Shown: positions 4,071 through 14,878 of the stretch, one piece after another | How positions within the stretch are numbered: position 1 is the stretch's first letter | Layout: the number at the start of each line of letters is the position of its first letter | Assembly (NCBI GenBank): GCA_002712305.1 | Contig: PATE01000121.1 | Span: 1-15,402 of the forward strand | From: Gemmatimonadota bacterium | GTDB lineage: Bacteria; Latescibacterota; UBA2968; UBA8231 | Length of the DNA: 15,402 nt | Direction: 5' to 3' | Notes under the pieces: model-generated | Database searches by the model: none | What the model was told of the DNA's origin: nothing | Seen by the model: only the letters and a program-made list of their open reading frames with translations | Translations under genes and position numbers: made by a program

Positions 4071-4156
4071 GACCGCGTTTGAGATACTCAGGCTTCCACG
4101 TCCGGGAGCCGGAGCGCAACGTTGAAAGGCCTACTGGCGCACGACAAGATTGTCCA

Positions 4157-4202
4157 GGGCCCACCAAGGATGGCCCGGCCTCAATAGGCCCACCAAGGAG
4201 GT
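4157..4202 (+). promoter_or_regulatory. Flagellin 1 leader: GGA-loop hairpin plus Shine-Dalgarno, candidate CsrA target
   Basis: GGGCC (4157-4161) pairs with GGCCC (4172-4176) around a loop containing CCAAGGAT. The Shine-Dalgarno AAGGAGGT is at 4195-4202, six bases before the ATG. The same 13 bases, GGCCCACCAAGGA, occur in both places (4158-4170 and 4187-4199). Two AAGGA sites, one in a hairpin loop and one at the ribosome site, are the classic layout of CsrA repression. CsrA binding is inferred. Confidence 0.5.
4158..4199 (+). repeat. 13-bp exact direct repeat in the flagellin 1 leader
   Basis: GGCCCACCAAGGA occurs at 4158-4170 and at 4187-4199, offset by 29 bases. The second copy runs into the Shine-Dalgarno. 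The repeat suggests duplication of a protein-binding or ribosome-binding element. Confidence 0.85.
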
Positions 4203-4208
4203 AGACCA

Positions 4209-5654
4209 ATGCCGCTTCGAATCGGTACTAATGTTACATCGCTCAACGCCGCTCGACATCTGAGCAGAGCTGCTGGCGACTTCACAAAACGCGTGGAGCG
4301 TCTCGCTTCCGGTCTGCGGATCAACCGTGGCGCCGACGATGCAGCAGGTCTGTCGGTGTCGGAGGGAATGCGTGCCGAGGTGCTCGGCATGCGACAGGGT
4401 GTCCGCAATGCTGAGCAGGGCGTGAGCCTCATTCAGCTGGCCGAGGGGTCTCTCAACGAGGTGAGCGCCATGCTCACTCGTATGCGTGAGCTGGCCGTGA
4501 CCTCAGCCAACTCGACGATCAACGACGTAAATCGTCAGAGCTTGACCTCAGAATTCAATCATCTGACGGTTGAAATCGATCGCATCGCAAACTCAACGAC
4601 CTACAACAAGCAGGTCCTGCTCACCGGCTTCGGCAATGCCGTGTCCCAGGTGGGCTCTATTTCAACGGCCCTGGCGGGCTTTTCCGGTGTCAGTGAGGTC
4701 GGTATCTCGGGCGCCGTTCCGGGAACCTACATCTTCACGGACACAAGCGATCAAGACAATCAGCTGACCCTTTCGGTGACCCTGCCGGATGGTACCAGGC
4801 TCGAGCAGTCAATCGATGTGGGATCTGCCATGGATCGTGACGGTGGCAAGAATGTTGTGGCGACGGGGACAACATTCGCCGCGAACTTCGATCGTGTCGG
4901 TATGCAGGTCACTATGAATGGTCCGGGAGTGAAGACGGGGACGACCTTCAAGTCGACCACGGCGACCGGCCAGGATGGCGTGATCACCATGACCAAGGCT
5001 GATGGCGGCACGGACTCAGTGAGGGTCACGGCGGGCCAGGATCTGAGCACGATCGCCACCGAACTCAACACCAAACTCTCCACGCTTGATTCGACCGCCT
5101 ATGCCTTGATCGACCCGATCACCGGTGAACTTCATGTAGATACGGGCACCCTCACCGTCGAGGGGCTCTCCGAGACGATCGGCGCCGTCGGGGGCAATGC
5201 CTATGTGGACGGGCGCCTCGACGGTAAGACACTCGTCGTGGAGGAAGGCGAGGGGGGTGTATTGCAGGTCGGCGCCAATGACAACGCAGATAATCGGATT
5301 TCGCTGAACATCGGCGACATGCGGGCCAGTGGGAATGTCCTGAACCTGAACGGTCTGTCCGTTGCCAATATCACCAGTTCCCGCTCGACGATCTCTGTGA
5401 TTGACACAGCGATCGTGGCAGTTGCCCGTCAACGTGGAGACCTGGGCGCGATTCAGAATCGACTGCAATTCACCTCCAACAACCTTGGGAATGCGATCGA
5501 GAACCTGCAGGCGGCTGAGTCAGCGATTCGTGATGCGGATGTGGCGGAGGAGATCTCTGCCTTCACGCGAAGCCAGATTATAACCCAGGCGGCGACGGCC
5601 ATGGTTGCTCAGGCTAATGCATTGCCGCAGAATGCTTTGACTCTTCTTCGATAA
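4209..5654 (+). CDS. fliC: Flagellin 1 (sigma-54 controlled, with a central insertion)
   Basis: Filament subunit of 481 residues, exported by the flagellar type III system. Seen: the N-terminal D0/D1 domain (about 1-145) has SGLRINRGADDAAGL, NAEQGVSLIQLAEGSLNEV and RMRELAV; the C-terminal D1/D0 domain (391-481) ends LPQNALTLLR, as flagellins do. No Cys is present. Compared with the two paralogs downstream it carries about 90 extra residues (239-329) between GMQVTMNG and YVDGRLDGKT. That insert includes an IN-like stretch (VRVTAGQDLSTIATELN) and probably adds a surface domain. The start is fixed by AAGGAGGT six bases upstream. A sigma-54 promoter and a terminator (5754-5785) make it a single-gene unit. 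Inferred: expressed before the sigma-28 class, perhaps as the hook-proximal filament. Its many Ser and Thr residues could be glycosylated by the upstream enzyme. Confidence 0.95.
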   Translation: MPLRIGTNVTSLNAARHLSRAAGDFTKRVERLASGLRINRGADDAAGLSVSEGMRAEVLGMRQGVRNAEQGVSLIQLAEGSLNEVSAMLTRMRELAVTSANSTINDVNRQSLTSEFNHLTVEIDRIANSTTYNKQVLLTGFGNAVSQVGSISTALAGFSGVSEVGISGAVPGTYIFTDTSDQDNQLTLSVTLPDGTRLEQSIDVGSAMDRDGGKNVVATGTTFAANFDRVGMQVTMNGPGVKTGTTFKSTTATGQDGVITMTKADGGTDSVRVTAGQDLSTIATELNTKLSTLDSTAYALIDPITGELHVDTGTLTVEGLSETIGAVGGNAYVDGRLDGKTLVVEEGEGGVLQVGANDNADNRISLNIGDMRASGNVLNLNGLSVANITSSRSTISVIDTAIVAVARQRGDLGAIQNRLQFTSNNLGNAIENLQAAESAIRDADVAEEISAFTRSQIITQAATAMVAQANALPQNALTLLR

Positions 5655-7266: not shown

Positions 7267-7303
7267 AATCGGGGCTCTGCAAAAAGGATGTAGGCCCCCG
7301 ATT
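7267..7303 (+). terminator. Hairpin after flagellin 2, possible terminator
   Basis: AATCGGGG (7267-7274) and CCCCGATT (7296-7303) form a perfect 8-bp stem. The following bases (AAAGTTCTGG) are not U-rich, so intrinsic termination is uncertain. The 3' arm overlaps the TAAA of promoter P1, and the loop contains AAAAAGGAT. Confidence 0.45.
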
Positions 7304-7330
7304 AAAGTTCTGGCAGGGTGCTGTCGATAT
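7303..7330 (+). promoter_or_regulatory. Sigma-28-like promoter P1 for flagellin 3
   Basis: TAAAGTTC (7303-7310), 12 bases, then GTCGATAT (7323-7330). Against TAAAGTTT-N11-GCCGATAA the elements match at 7 of 8 and 6 of 8 positions, with one extra spacer base. The predicted start near 7337 would give a leader of about 375 bases. Confidence 0.55.
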
Positions 7331-7448: not shown

Positions 7449-7476
7449 TAAAGCTTGGTCTTCAGGATACCGATAG
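7449..7476 (+). promoter_or_regulatory. Sigma-28-like promoter P2 for flagellin 3
   Basis: TAAAGCTT (7449-7456), 12 bases, then ACCGATAG (7469-7476): 7 of 8 and 6 of 8 matches, with the same one-base-longer spacer as P1. The predicted start near 7484 gives a leader of about 228 bases. Two elements with the same spacing 146 bases apart suggest tandem promoters. Confidence 0.5.
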
Positions 7477-9661: not shown

Positions 9662-12600
9662 ATGTCCCAAGGAATCACATTTCAAGGCTTAGGATCCGGT
9701 CTCGACACCGGTTCCATCATCGAACAGCTTGTCGCCATCGAGCAGCGGCCGGTGACGCTGATTCAGCAGCGTCAGGCGACCCTCGAGACGCAGAAGCTGG
9801 CGATCGCGGATATCAATTCCGCCTTGCTCAATCTGAAGAGCCAGGCTGAGAATCTGGCGGATGTCGATCTGTTCTCGATTACCAAGATCAATTCCTCTGA
9901 CAGCTCGAAAGTCTCGGTCTCGGCAACGAACGATGCCGCCATCGGTTCGATCAATGTCGAGGTCCTCGAACTGGCGCAGGCCCGATCGCTGTCATCGCGA
10001 TCATTTTCCGCCTCTGATGAGGACCTGGGTCTGGCCGGCGAGTTTGTCGTCAACGGCGTCGGTATCGAAATCGCGTCGACGGACAGCCTGATTGACGTGC
10101 GCGACACGATCAATGCCGCCGATGCCGGTGTCAACGCGCAGATTCTCACCGTCGCCGATGGTGACAATCGACTGATCGTCAGTGCCGAAGAGGTCGGTGC
10201 TGCTGGCTTTGATCTGCGTGATGCCTCCGCTGAGGATGTCCTGCAGGGCCTGGGGCTCACTTCGGCAGCGACACAGGTCAAGAACACCTTTGCCGATGGC
10301 GCTCGCTCGGCGCAGTTCCTCTCTGACAGCGACAGTGTCGGCACACTTTTGAATCTCAGTTCGCCGCCAGCGGGCACGGTCTCGATCGCGGGAACTGATA
10401 TCACCGTTGACCTGGCGACTGATTCGCTGACCAGCATCGCCGACAGCATCAACACGGCCGGAATTGCAGGGGTTTCTGCTGCCGTAACCAGTGTGGACGA
10501 CGGCGGCCTGATGCGCTATCAGCTCGAGATCCAGGGTACGACCGAGATCGTCGACAACACGGGTGCCATGGAAACCATGGGTGTGCTTGATTCCAGTGGC
10601 GACGTGGTCGATGAGATCATTGCCGGAGCCGAAACCGACGCTTTCACCAGTACGACGACCTCTCTGGGGTCGCTGTTGTCACTGGGAACCGGTCCACAGG
10701 GCTCGATCTCCATTGCCGGACAGAGTGTCGCCATCGATCTGGCTGAGGACAGTCTTACCGATATTCAGACTCGCATCAACGATGCGTCGATTGCCGGTGT
10801 CACGGCGACGGTGACCACAAGTTCCCACGCGGATGGTAAAAGTCAGTTTCGACTGCGGATCGACGGGACGACAGACCTGGTCGACGATGGGAATATTCTC
10901 GAGAGTCTCGGCGTGTTACAGGGCTCGAACTCAGCCTTCGAATCTGTTGCCCGGGTGCTTACGGCAAATACTCCCAACCAGGTCCGTGGCGCAGTTCTGA
11001 ATCCCGTTGGAGGCAGCGGCGCCAAGAGTATGGAAGTCGCCAGCGATGCCGATCCCCTGTCGACGACGATCGGTTCCACTGCCAGCGGCAGCGTTTCTAT
11101 TGATGGCGTGGCCGTCGCCATCGACCTCAACACCGATTCGCTGAATGATGTAAGGGACAAGATCAACGCTACGGGGATCAGTGGTGTCACGGCGACGGTG
11201 AATACAGTCGGTCCGGCCACTTTTGAACTGGAGATCTCCGGCACGCAGACCTTCGATGATGACGGCGGCGTGTTGCAGGATCTCGGTGTGGTGGGGGCCA
11301 ACTCGGTGGCGACCGACAACACGCGTTTCGGTGATATCGCCAATGTCAATGTACAGGCAGGCGATACCGTCTCCATCAGTGGTCGCAATCGCGATGGCGA
11401 TCAGGTGGCGGGCACATTCACGATCAGCAACAGCAATCTGCGGATTGACAATCTTCTGACCACCGTGGAGGGGCTCTTCGGTGACGACGTGACCGCATTT
11501 GTCGACGCCATGGGGCGGATTTCGCTGGCTGACAATGTGGCCGGTACCAGTTCCATGTCGCTGACCCTGACGGCGAACAACGAAGGCGGCGGAAATCTGA
11601 CCTTCGGTGATCTATCCGTGACGACGCAGGGCGCCGATGCCAGATCCTCCGAACTGCAGGCTGGGACTGATGCCGAGGTCCGTATCAACGGGATCACACT
11701 GAGTCGCTCGACGAACACGATAACCGATGCGGTCGAGGGGGTGACCTTGACCCTGAATCAGATCACCGATGAAGAGGAGGTCGTCGAAGTCAGTGTGTCG
11801 AAGGACGACACCACGCAACTGCGGAGCCAGCTGGAAGGATTTGTCGCCGAATACAACACGGCCATGGGACTCATTCAGGCGCAGATGGCTGTGGATACGG
11901 ATACCGGCGAGCGCAGTTCGCTCACCGGAGATGCCACCATCCTGGGCGTGCAGTCGCGACTGCGCTCGGCCATCATCAATGAGATTGATGTTGAAGGTGA
12001 GTTCAATGCCCTCGTCTTTATGGGGATCAACTTCGACCGCGATGCCGAACTGACAATTGACGACGCACGTCTCACCGAGGCGCTGGAGAACAACCTCGAG
12101 GACGTGCAGGCGCTCTTTGTAGAGCGTGGCAGTACAACGAACGAGGATGTCGAGTTTGTTCGGTCCACGACGCGGACCCTGGCCGGGAACTACTCCCTGG
12201 ATGTCACACAGGCCGCTCAGCAGGCCGAACTTCTGGGGAGTGTCGACCTGTCTGGTGGGCTGGCTGAAGCTCAAACGCTCACGATCACGGAAGTCGGCAG
12301 TCTGAGCAGCACAGCCGTTGTCGAGCTGACTGCTGGTGATACCACCGATGACATCGTCGAGAAGGTCAACAGCGCACTCAGCAGCGAGGTGGCCGAAGTG
12401 CGCCGTGGTTCGGTAGCCAACACAACCGATGGCGCCGCTGCAATCGATGAAGATACCGTCTTTGCCGACATTTTTGGTGCCGGTGTCGTCAATGGTGACA
12501 GCATCCGGATTCAGGGAACCACTCATGACGGTTCAGCTGTGCAGCGCTCCTACGAGATCGAGGATGCGGCGACCCAGGACATAGGTGATCTACTGAGCGA

Positions 12601-13336
12601 GGTCCGGGCGACATTCGGGAACGACATCAGCGCCAATATCGACGCCGATGGGCGGATTCTGGTGACCGACAACCAGGTTGGCCCGAGCAGTCTGACCGTG
12701 ACGCTGGTGGAAGCCAACGAAGGAGGCGGCAATCTCGATCTGGGCAGCATCGAGGCAGAGACAGAGGGACGCTTCCCAATGGAGATCACAGCTATCAATG
12801 TGGATGGCAGGCTGCAACTCCGGCACGACTCCTACGGCGACAATTCCGGATTCAGTGTCACTCAGAGTGTCGATCAACTTGGCCTGGCGACGGACGAGGT
12901 GCGTGGCGCGGATGTGGAAGGCTCGATCAACGGTGAAGTTGCGGATGGATTTGGTCGCATTCTCACCGGCTCGCGAGACAATGCGACGACGGATGGTCTG
13001 ACCCTGCGCGTGACCACGACACAGGCAGAGTTGGACGCCGACAGCAGTGATCGCGGCAGCGTCGGTCTCGTCTACGGTGTGGGGCGATCGCTCACCGATC
13101 TGCTATCTTTCATTACCGACGACATCGATGGAACGCTGAAGACCCGCGAAGATGCGATCGATGATACCATCGACAACCTCGGTGATCAGATCACCGTGCT
13201 GGAGCGACGCGTTGAGCAGACGCGGACCCATTTGGTCAGTAAGTTCGCGACGTTGGAAGGGAGTCTGGCAACGCTGCAGTCTCAAGGGGATTTTCTAGCC
13301 TCCCAGCTCGCCGGCCTGTCGTCCGGCAGAGGTTGA
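9662..13336 (+). CDS. fliD: FliD filament cap protein, oversized (1224 residues)
   Basis: FliD forms the cap at the filament tip and promotes insertion of exported flagellin. Typical members have roughly 450-700 residues, so this one is about twice normal. Seen: FliD_N begins ITFQGLGSGLDTGSIIEQLV; a hook-IN-type stretch lies near 120-170; three IN-like repeats span 221-309, 325-419 and 461-544; a module of about 105 residues (556-661) precedes the FliD_C core (662 onward, INGITLSRSTNTITDAVEG). An insertion (about 830-1100) holds a second FliD_N-like stretch, a second copy of the module (934-1037) and YGDNSGFSVTQ. The coiled-coil C-terminus ends FATLEGSLATLQ and DFLASQLAGL. No Cys was seen. 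AGGA six bases upstream supports the start. fliS follows after 28 bases. Inferred: the additions are exposed outer domains that could mediate adhesion or fit three different flagellins. Confidence 0.93.
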   Translation: MSQGITFQGLGSGLDTGSIIEQLVAIEQRPVTLIQQRQATLETQKLAIADINSALLNLKSQAENLADVDLFSITKINSSDSSKVSVSATNDAAIGSINVEVLELAQARSLSSRSFSASDEDLGLAGEFVVNGVGIEIASTDSLIDVRDTINAADAGVNAQILTVADGDNRLIVSAEEVGAAGFDLRDASAEDVLQGLGLTSAATQVKNTFADGARSAQFLSDSDSVGTLLNLSSPPAGTVSIAGTDITVDLATDSLTSIADSINTAGIAGVSAAVTSVDDGGLMRYQLEIQGTTEIVDNTGAMETMGVLDSSGDVVDEIIAGAETDAFTSTTTSLGSLLSLGTGPQGSISIAGQSVAIDLAEDSLTDIQTRINDASIAGVTATVTTSSHADGKSQFRLRIDGTTDLVDDGNILESLGVLQGSNSAFESVARVLTANTPNQVRGAVLNPVGGSGAKSMEVASDADPLSTTIGSTASGSVSIDGVAVAIDLNTDSLNDVRDKINATGISGVTATVNTVGPATFELEISGTQTFDDDGGVLQDLGVVGANSVATDNTRFGDIANVNVQAGDTVSISGRNRDGDQVAGTFTISNSNLRIDNLLTTVEGLFGDDVTAFVDAMGRISLADNVAGTSSMSLTLTANNEGGGNLTFGDLSVTTQGADARSSELQAGTDAEVRINGITLSRSTNTITDAVEGVTLTLNQITDEEEVVEVSVSKDDTTQLRSQLEGFVAEYNTAMGLIQAQMAVDTDTGERSSLTGDATILGVQSRLRSAIINEIDVEGEFNALVFMGINFDRDAELTIDDARLTEALENNLEDVQALFVERGSTTNEDVEFVRSTTRTLAGNYSLDVTQAAQQAELLGSVDLSGGLAEAQTLTITEVGSLSSTAVVELTAGDTTDDIVEKVNSALSSEVAEVRRGSVANTTDGAAAIDEDTVFADIFGAGVVNGDSIRIQGTTHDGSAVQRSYEIEDAATQDIGDLLSEVRATFGNDISANIDADGRILVTDNQVGPSSLTVTLVEANEGGGNLDLGSIEAETEGRFPMEITAINVDGRLQLRHDSYGDNSGFSVTQSVDQLGLATDEVRGADVEGSINGEVADGFGRILTGSRDNATTDGLTLRVTTTQAELDADSSDRGSVGLVYGVGRSLTDLLSFITDDIDGTLKTREDAIDDTIDNLGDQITVLERRVEQTRTHLVSKFATLEGSLATLQSQGDFLASQLAGLSSGRG
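10322..11293 (+). repeat. Three IN-like repeats inside FliD
   Basis: Protein-level repeats at residues 221-309, 325-419 and 461-544. Each follows the pattern VSI.G..V.IDL..DSL..I...IN...I.GV.A.V and ends near L/MGVL or LGVV. The G-[TS]-[VI]-S-I cores start at residues 238, 347 and 476. This resembles the flagellin/hook IN motif family. The spacing is uneven and the copies have diverged. Confidence 0.75.
11327..12772 (+). repeat. Duplicated module of about 105 residues inside FliD
   Basis: Copy a covers residues 556-661 (nt 11327-11644) and copy b covers 934-1037 (nt 12461-12772). Shared landmarks are F.DI near the start, a GD..I/S..G strand, a DA/DG-RI/L...DN..G.SS turn, and NEGGGNL followed by a Gly- or Glu-rich end. 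They flank the FliD_C core, so the duplication is not a simple tandem repeat. Confidence 0.75.
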
Positions 13337-13364: not shown

Positions 13365-13790
13365 ATGAATCGTAGCCCCAGGCACCGCCAGTACAATGAG
13401 GTGCAGATCAAGACCGCGAACAAGGGACAACTCATCGTCCTTCTCTATCAGGGTGCCCTGCGGAACATGCGCAAGGCGCTGCTGCAGCTGGAGGAGAAGG
13501 ATATGGAGGGCAAGGGGAACTCCCTCATCAAGGCGCAGGATATCATCCTGGAGCTGATGTGCGCCCTAGATCAGAGCATGCTTGAAGAGGGCAACGAACT
13601 GGCAGCCAATCTTCAGCGTCTCTATCTGTATTGTTATCGCCAACTCGTGCAGGCGAATCTCAAGATGGCTCCCAAGCCGATCGAGGAAGTGATCGAGTTG
13701 CTGGCCAATCTTCTGGAGGCCTGGGAACAGGTGGCGGCCAATGGCGGCGGCGACGGTGGCATCCATCCAACGGTCGCCCTGACGGGTTGA
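13365..13790 (+). CDS. fliS: FliS flagellin export chaperone
   Basis: A 141-residue four-helix-bundle protein. It matches FliS (PF02561): YNEVQIKTANKGQLIVLLYQGALRNM is the family's N-terminal signature, followed by KGNSLIKAQDIILELMCALD, LQRLYLYCYRQLVQANLKM and the closing helix ELLANLLEAWEQVA. The length is normal for the family, with a short Gly-rich tail (NGGGDGG). FliS binds the flagellin C-terminus in the cytoplasm, prevents premature polymerisation and delivers the subunit to FlhA. GAAGGGAG is the ribosome site. It lies 28 bases after fliD, and its stop overlaps the Shine-Dalgarno of the next gene. With three flagellins sharing C-terminal D0 features, one FliS may serve all, though flagellin 2 diverges at its C-terminus. 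Confidence 0.95.
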   Translation: MNRSPRHRQYNEVQIKTANKGQLIVLLYQGALRNMRKALLQLEEKDMEGKGNSLIKAQDIILELMCALDQSMLEEGNELAANLQRLYLYCYRQLVQANLKMAPKPIEEVIELLANLLEAWEQVAANGGGDGGIHPTVALTG

Positions 13791-13801: not shown

Positions 13802-14233
13802 ATGACAGTCGCCGTCGATATTCGCAGCCACGTTGAGTTTCTCGACGCTCAGTATGAGGATTTTCAGCAGATGAAGGGACTCGGACGCCGCCAGCGCGAG
13901 TGCCTGCTGCGAGACGACCTGAAAGGTCTGAGTCAGGCCATGACGCAGATGCAGGAGCTCATGGTCCGTGTTCGTCTGCGCCAACGCGATCTGGCCGTTG
14001 AGCTTGATGACGAGGCCCGCTGCAGGCCTGAGGTCGCAGAGCGGGTCGAACGCCTGCGCCATCTGATCGAGTCCGTTGCTCAGGTGCGCTCGCAGAGCGA
14101 GGAGGTCACCCGTATGTTGCTGCACCAGACCCGCCAGGAGATGGAGCAGTCGACCCGCCAGAAGCGGGCTACGCGTGGCTACGGGCAACCCGCCCGCGTA
14201 AACGAGCCGCGATTCACCGACGGACTCCGCTAG
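13802..14233 (+). CDS. FliT/FlgN-like flagellar export chaperone
   Basis: A 143-residue helical protein. The central part resembles FlgN/FliT chaperones: FLDAQYEDFQQMKGLGRRQR, then ECLLRDDLKGLSQAMTQMQE and LMVRVRLRQRDLAVELDD, which is the pattern of a long helix with a self-partner hairpin. A second helix ERVERLRHLIESVAQVRSQ follows, and the basic tail (RQKRATRGYGQP) looks disordered. FliT binds FliD and FlgN binds FlgK/FlgL; position directly after fliD and fliS favours the FliT role. I prefer ATG 13802, although the frame stays open upstream inside fliS: GAGGT at 13789-13793 overlaps the fliS stop and sits 8 bases before it, implying translational coupling. An in-frame GTG lies directly before. 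Family assignment rests on pattern and context. Confidence 0.75.
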   Translation: MTVAVDIRSHVEFLDAQYEDFQQMKGLGRRQRECLLRDDLKGLSQAMTQMQELMVRVRLRQRDLAVELDDEARCRPEVAERVERLRHLIESVAQVRSQSEEVTRMLLHQTRQEMEQSTRQKRATRGYGQPARVNEPRFTDGLR

Positions 14234-14315: not shown

Positions 14316-14342
14316 TAAAGTATCTGCTGTTGCTGCCGATAT
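14316..14342 (+). promoter_or_regulatory. Sigma-28 (FliA) promoter for flgM
   Basis: TAAAGTAT (14316-14323), 11 bases, GCCGATAT (14335-14342): TAAA with the exact 15-base gap to the -10, and 7 of 8 matches to GCCGATAA. It is the best sigma-28 match in the window. The start would be near 14350, about 73 bases before the flgM ATG. It gives the feedback loop known from other flagellar systems, in which sigma-28 drives its own inhibitor. Confidence 0.85.
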
Positions 14343-14422: not shown

Positions 14423-14878
14423 ATGCGCATTGAAGGGTTACCCAATCTTCAAAAGGTATCCCAGCCCACTCAGCGAACTGACTCGACGCGGCAGCGGCGA
14501 TCGGCCAGCGAGGCATCTGATTATGTCGAAATCTCGACGACGGCGAAGCAGGCCGCCGATCTGAGCGCAGCGGCTCGGTCGGCACCTGACACGCTGAACC
14601 CCCGGATCGAAGAGGTCCGGCAGCGGGTTGCATCGGGATTCTACGACTCTGATGATGTCCGACGCGAAATCGCTGGGGCAATTCTGGATTCCGATAGCGT
14701 GCGGCCAGTCGTTGACGAGATTGGCGTGGTGCGTCAGGCCAAGCAGCAGCTTGATAGCGTCCCTGACACACGTCCTGATCGTGTGAACGAGGCACGTGAG
14801 CGGGCCACCAGCGGTTTCTATGATCAACCTGAGGTCCGTGAAGCGACGGCTGACGGGTTTATCGACGAGTTGGTCTGA
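14423..14878 (+). CDS. flgM: FlgM-like anti-sigma-28 factor with duplicated helix motif
   Basis: A 151-residue protein, longer than classical FlgM (about 97). Residues 34-88 fit the FlgM C-terminal domain: YVEISTTAKQAADLSAAAR, then RIEEVRQRVASGFYDSDDV and IAGAILDS. In FlgM this region binds sigma-28, and the N-terminus is disordered and carries the export signal; here the first 30 residues are likewise Ser/Thr/Arg-rich. A second copy of the motif sits at 117-151 (RVNEARERATSGFYDQPEV, with GFIDEL at the end), offset 59 residues from the first. Both copies begin PDT, have R[IV].E.R.R..SGFYD and a following V-R. The start is ATG 14423 with AGGGGGGAG just upstream; an upstream in-frame ATG at 14297 precedes the sigma-28 promoter and is excluded. 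A FlgM-related regulator with a different partner is possible. Confidence 0.75.
   Translation: MRIEGLPNLQKVSQPTQRTDSTRQRRSASEASDYVEISTTAKQAADLSAAARSAPDTLNPRIEEVRQRVASGFYDSDDVRREIAGAILDSDSVRPVVDEIGVVRQAKQQLDSVPDTRPDRVNEARERATSGFYDQPEVREATADGFIDELV

Follow-up and report, generated by a model that had tools for sequence, protein, structure and literature searches.

In the window, which is the whole stretch of 15,402 nucleotides analysed here, three flagellin genes, flaG, fliD, fliS and an flgN-like gene lie on the 5' side of a gene that most likely encodes FlgM, the protein that keeps FliA, the flagellar switch, in check while the motor is still under construction. Closest to this flgM gene are fliS (13365..13790, forward strand; PF02561, 119.8 bits), whose product is a candidate partner, and the flgN-like chaperone gene (13805..14233, forward strand, predicted start; PF05130, 28.1 bits, slightly below the cut-off of 30.5). 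The flgM gene (14423..14878, forward strand) starts with an ATG at 14423 and its stop codon ends at 14878, giving a product of 151 residues; an alternative longer frame from 14297 was dropped since no homology backs the upstream start. FliD (9662-13336) is unusually long here, at 1224 aa; in relatives it has about 1000-1220 aa across the phylum and 553-701 aa in the second phylum-level group that also carries this flgM.

A sigma-28 type promoter, TAAAGTAT-N11-GCCGATAT, lies ahead of flgM at 14316..14342 on the forward strand. It scores 13/14 and is the top sigma-28-like site when the window is scanned on both strands, confirming what the earlier note had claimed for it; 5 sigma-28 matches with 3 mismatches or fewer were found in the window for 1.5 expected, and only the one at 14316-14342 is free of mismatches. 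Across the 4.77-Mb draft genome, this promoter is also the sole perfect match to TAAAGT-N13-GCCGATA. Sites of at least 11 points precede 12 of the 19 tandem flgM genes scanned (the gene under study counted), and the upstream scan gave no site above shuffle level in G003, G025, family f6 and the second group. The conservation of the promoter before most orthologs of the class, together with the flagellar neighbours, bears out the placing of the gene in a sigma-28 circuit that the same note had proposed, and the promoter would presumably be used in vivo, judging from its sequence. Weaker sigma-28-like sites precede the third flagellin gene (7303-7330 and 7449-7476), and no clear site of this kind was seen upstream of the first two.

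The protein carries an internal repeat. PDT is present twice, at residues 55 and 114, as is SGFYD, at 71 and 130, both with a spacing of exactly 59, and R-[IV]-x-E-x-R-x-R is kept in both copies (RIEEVRQR at 61-68 and RVNEARER at 120-127). When the two halves (residues 31-92 and 93-151) were aligned locally, they scored 96, compared with 24.4 +/- 4.9 for shuffles, none of which reached that score in 5000 (z 14.7). The two tandem motifs offset by 59 residues that the earlier note had described are thus real and align far beyond chance. At the DNA level, the repeated motifs lie at 14585-14647 and 14762-14824, the pair covering 14585-14824; of the span 14602-14878 first given for them, the end agrees with the stop codon, but the start falls inside copy 1 and removes the first PDT, since the first motif begins at 14585.

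Three parts can be told apart along the chain. Residues 1-31 (14423..14515, forward strand) form an N-terminal tail that is predicted to be disordered (AlphaFold2 pLDDT < 50) and that we presume, by analogy with canonical FlgM, to be the export signal region; such disorder is compatible with flagellar type III export. Copy 1 (residues 33-92; 14519..14698, forward strand) is a full FlgM domain by its PF04316 score and the model, with a D-x-V-E-I-S segment followed by modelled helices at 39-53, 60-70 and 77-89. Copy 2 (residues 93-150; 14699..14872, forward strand) is a repeat of the helical arm, with modelled helices at 94-112, 117-129 and 136-150, and it lacks the V-E-I-S segment. Alignment and model thus both find the two-helix C-terminal arm of FlgM twice in one protein.

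FlgM is the textbook checkpoint that ties gene expression to flagellum assembly, acting as a secreted inhibitor of FliA. The membership of the tandem protein in this family, which had first been suggested from the letters of the DNA, is upheld by both curated profiles: it scores 48.1 bits with TIGR03824 of NCBIfam (cut-off 40.75) and 47.7 bits over two stretches with PF04316 of Pfam (cut-off 25). Taken singly in the PF04316 genome search, copy 1 is above that cut-off (33.1 bits) and copy 2 below it (17.9 bits). In three orthologs, however, copy 2 exceeds it by itself (G046, 34.9 bits; G045, 33.7 bits; G025, 29.6 bits), which indicates that copy 2 is a genuine FlgM-type module whose sequence has drifted in the family of this genome. 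Weak PF04316 matches on contigs C68 and C137 are not flgM, their host frames having no FlgM features.

The duplicated architecture, which the earlier note had proposed to look for in related phyla, was found in the class, in family f6 and in the second phylum-level group. Intact tandem genes number 14 in the Latescibacterota class (this genome, G001, G003, G004, G007, G008, G011, G017, G019, G025, G035, G042, G045 and G046), three in f6, another family of the same phylum (G048, G052 and G059), and five in the second group, where all five genomes examined have one (G064 and G066-G069). These counts leave out G012, whose frame is broken in copy 2, and G005, whose gene is split across two contigs; the collection was scanned with a narrower alignment, alignment A1 being too diverse. 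An assembly artefact as the origin of the tandem was ruled out, since the identical architecture recurs in many independent genomes. The order fliD-fliS-(flgN-like)-flgM is found in nearly all loci of sufficient length in both phylum-level groups (the G025 contig ends first), and tandem flgM is generally absent from genomes without a FliA above cut-off; G005, G012 and G025 have the gene with no FliA found, in assemblies that are incomplete. At locus L100, a 'VSSGFYDSVNVQKEVANAM' stretch lies inside a 227-aa frame. A half-domain tree of 33 columns groups the copies by position, with no resolution on whether both phylum-level groups share one duplication. Conserved in one phylum and in a second phylum-level group, the doubled form probably represents a functional version of the textbook regulator and not an accident.

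This distribution bears on whether copy 2 could be a leftover duplicate, that is, a helical tail or stabiliser without a partner of its own. Its weaker score on the FlgM profile, in this genome and family, would fit such a fate, but it has been retained in 22 intact genes of two phylum-level groups. Moreover, in an alignment of 16 Latescibacterota sequences, R117 is invariant and P114 and Y133 are nearly so. The whole-gene dN/dS between this genome and G001 is 0.04, and values for either copy within genus g4 are 0.11-0.38, with several dS values near saturation; purifying selection acts on both copies. Second-group proteins even conserve copy 2 better than copy 1 (mean identity of 0.61 vs 0.40). 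Altogether, we consider a leftover duplicate very unlikely.

The two copies are not equally preserved everywhere. Among class sequences, all 13 first copies have a hydrophobic residue (Val or Leu) at position 65/124, where the 12 second copies all have Ala or Thr, and position 83/142 is hydrophobic in 13/13 first copies vs 3/12 second copies; the second copy of G046, which has a two-residue gap, is excluded from these second-copy counts. With two hydrophobic positions of copy 1 lost from copy 2, the arms are probably not interchangeable in the class. In the second group, the equivalents of positions 124 and 142 are hydrophobic in all second copies; the specialisation of the copies thus differs from lineage to lineage.

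An AlphaFold2 model built on the 16-sequence alignment repeats the three-helix pattern, with a pLDDT of about 75-88 in copy 2, and its pTM of 0.24 means that it predicts no mutual arrangement of the arms. The model of a second-group protein has a comparable helix pattern at lower confidence. A Foldseek search with the tandem FlgM model, which has no fixed tertiary arrangement, returned no usable fold match. That models of both phylum-level groups' proteins lack fixed packing between the arms would suit a bivalent sponge, in which each arm holds its own FliA, one FlgM thus taking up two FliA and making the switch steeper. It is also in favour of such a sponge that copy 2 looks at least as complete as copy 1 in f6 and among second-group proteins, but the arms are not equivalent, given that copy 2 has no V-E-I-S and has lost two face positions in the class. 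We therefore regard the sponge as rather improbable.

FliA itself gives a single match above cut-off in this genome (274.9 bits; G000:C66:106887-107555, minus strand), as in nearly all tandem-bearing relatives, and exactly one in 5/5 second-group genomes. We thus discarded the idea that the two arms exist to serve two FliA paralogs: a second FliA above cut-off was found only in G042, where it scores lower and lies on contig C435. G042 also has an additional small FlgM-like frame, located between its flgN and tandem flgM genes (L067, about 4140-4440).

In the A. aeolicus complex, FlgM is wrapped around a single FliA and masks the determinants in sigma2 and sigma4 that bind RNA polymerase (PMC4598750), and this complex frames our proposal that tandem FlgM binds FliA. 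The segments M60-G73 and A83-A90 of Salmonella FlgM tend towards helix, and its anti-sigma-28 activity requires them (PMC6275026); by alignment, the duplicated element consists of their counterparts. Our tentative best explanation, to which we give nearly even chances, is a functional two-armed FlgM whose copy 1 is canonical and whose copy 2 acts on a second site of the same FliA. Copy 1, as a complete FlgM domain, would bind and block FliA until the hook is finished, and FlgM would then be exported through the flagellar gate. Copy 2 duplicates the helical arm, keeps the signature R-x-x-x-V...G-F-Y and, in the class, has lost the two hydrophobic positions; it would most likely grip a second site of the same FliA, holding the 1:1 complex more tightly or allowing its release to be tuned more finely. 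FliA would drive flgM, closing a negative feedback loop. We infer FliA binding, inhibition, export, stoichiometry and the target of copy 2. This two-armed reading draws on the profiles, the copy-2 scores of orthologs, the distribution, the single FliA, the low dN/dS, the repeated helices, the promoter, the duplication of the essential Salmonella helices and the precedent of RsiG described below. It is weakened by the pTM of 0.24, the lack of a fold match, the missing V-E-I-S of copy 2 and the changes at positions 124 and 142, the last of which could mean a different target.

As a target of copy 2, the same FliA is our first choice and FliS the second. What makes FliS the main rival is its behaviour in Salmonella, where it binds FlgM and holds back FlgM secretion (PMC8527033; PMC7248283): copy 1 might sit on FliA and copy 2 on another flagellar protein, most plausibly FliS (or the FlgN-like protein), so that FlgM export would be metered by flagellin supply. 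In both phylum-level groups, most loci do have tandem flgM after fliD-fliS, although gene neighbourhood is by itself weak evidence, and the systematic difference between the arms at the two hydrophobic positions in the class would also suit distinct partners. However, canonical FlgM already binds FliS with one copy, which makes a second arm unneeded, and copy 2 of the second group retains the full hydrophobic face expected of a sigma-binding arm. A role of copy 2 on FliS is thus a serious but unlikely alternative to its gripping FliA.

The earlier note had counted a separate canonical flgM elsewhere in the genome against its reading. The Pfam PF04316 search found no second flgM in this genome, but the families of some relatives do have separate single-domain FlgM proteins, namely six genomes of families f2-f4 in the class and two of f6 in the same phylum; these genomes mostly hold a single FliA. 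Like the tandem protein, these paralogs are PF04316 members from the same phylum, with a module that resembles either copy; unlike it, they have one module, lie outside the fliD-fliS locus and mostly have no clear sigma-28 promoter. Those of f3-f4 (L073, L074, L075, L076 and L078) lie near TolC-like, M23-like and bactofilin genes, not flagellar genes.

This genome also encodes a divergent one-module protein of 71 aa (G000:C26, about 20243-20608, minus strand; L148 7244-7609). It has no FlgM match in Pfam or NCBIfam, but hhalign relates its family to FlgM with a probability of 96.3% across 43 columns. Its gene is downstream of SLBB/Wza-like and Wzz-like genes (named from sequence) of polysaccharide-export type, and close relatives of the protein occur only in family f1, in 12 genomes (this one included), each with FliA or tandem FlgM. 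GCCGATA lies 26-143 bases upstream in 11/11 copies of the gene, for 0.03 expected per 190 bases, with no TAAAG -35 beside it. Given this protein and the single-domain FlgM of relatives, FliA may have other binding proteins besides the tandem one. A broader and quite unlikely scenario would have an ancient class of two-armed FlgM, its arms with different targets, and a stand-alone one-module protein that co-sets FliA, wiring motility to surface polysaccharide. If this were true, tandem FlgM and proteins of the 71-aa type would compete for one sigma factor, the gene of the one-module protein sitting behind genes of polysaccharide-export type and following a -10 element of the sigma-28 type.

The nearest precedent for the doubling of the FlgM arm, in a separate protein family, is RsiG, the anti-sigma of the FliA relative WhiG, whose second motif arose by internal duplication and which binds as a monomer (PMC8325347). 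Like the twin-motif RsiG of Streptomyces, tandem FlgM would be an anti-sigma of a FliA-family sigma with an internally doubled motif and known single-motif relatives (PMC8325347). Unlike RsiG, which is armed by c-di-GMP, it belongs to a different sequence family and has no sign of nucleotide binding; the RsiG motif E(X)3S(X)2R(X)3[QH](X)3D is absent from all 21 tandem FlgM sequences scanned.

Compared with canonical FlgM of Salmonella and Aquifex, the tandem protein shares the passing of profile cut-offs, the V-E-I-S segment, the two activity helices and the disordered N-terminus, as well as flagellar neighbours, a sigma-28 type promoter and one FliA in the genome. It differs in having 151 aa (about 90-100 aa in canonical FlgM; 98 positions in the NCBIfam model), in carrying the helical arm twice and in a copy 2 without V-E-I-S and, in the class, without two hydrophobic positions. 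The two-armed form is most likely a functional variant of FlgM, a known family, with a second binding arm added; in the open-access literature searched, we found no description of a tandem FlgM. FlgM has been understood as a single disordered chain around a single sigma factor, and the conservation of a two-armed form in deep, uncultured lineages would illustrate ways of retuning the FlgM checkpoint.
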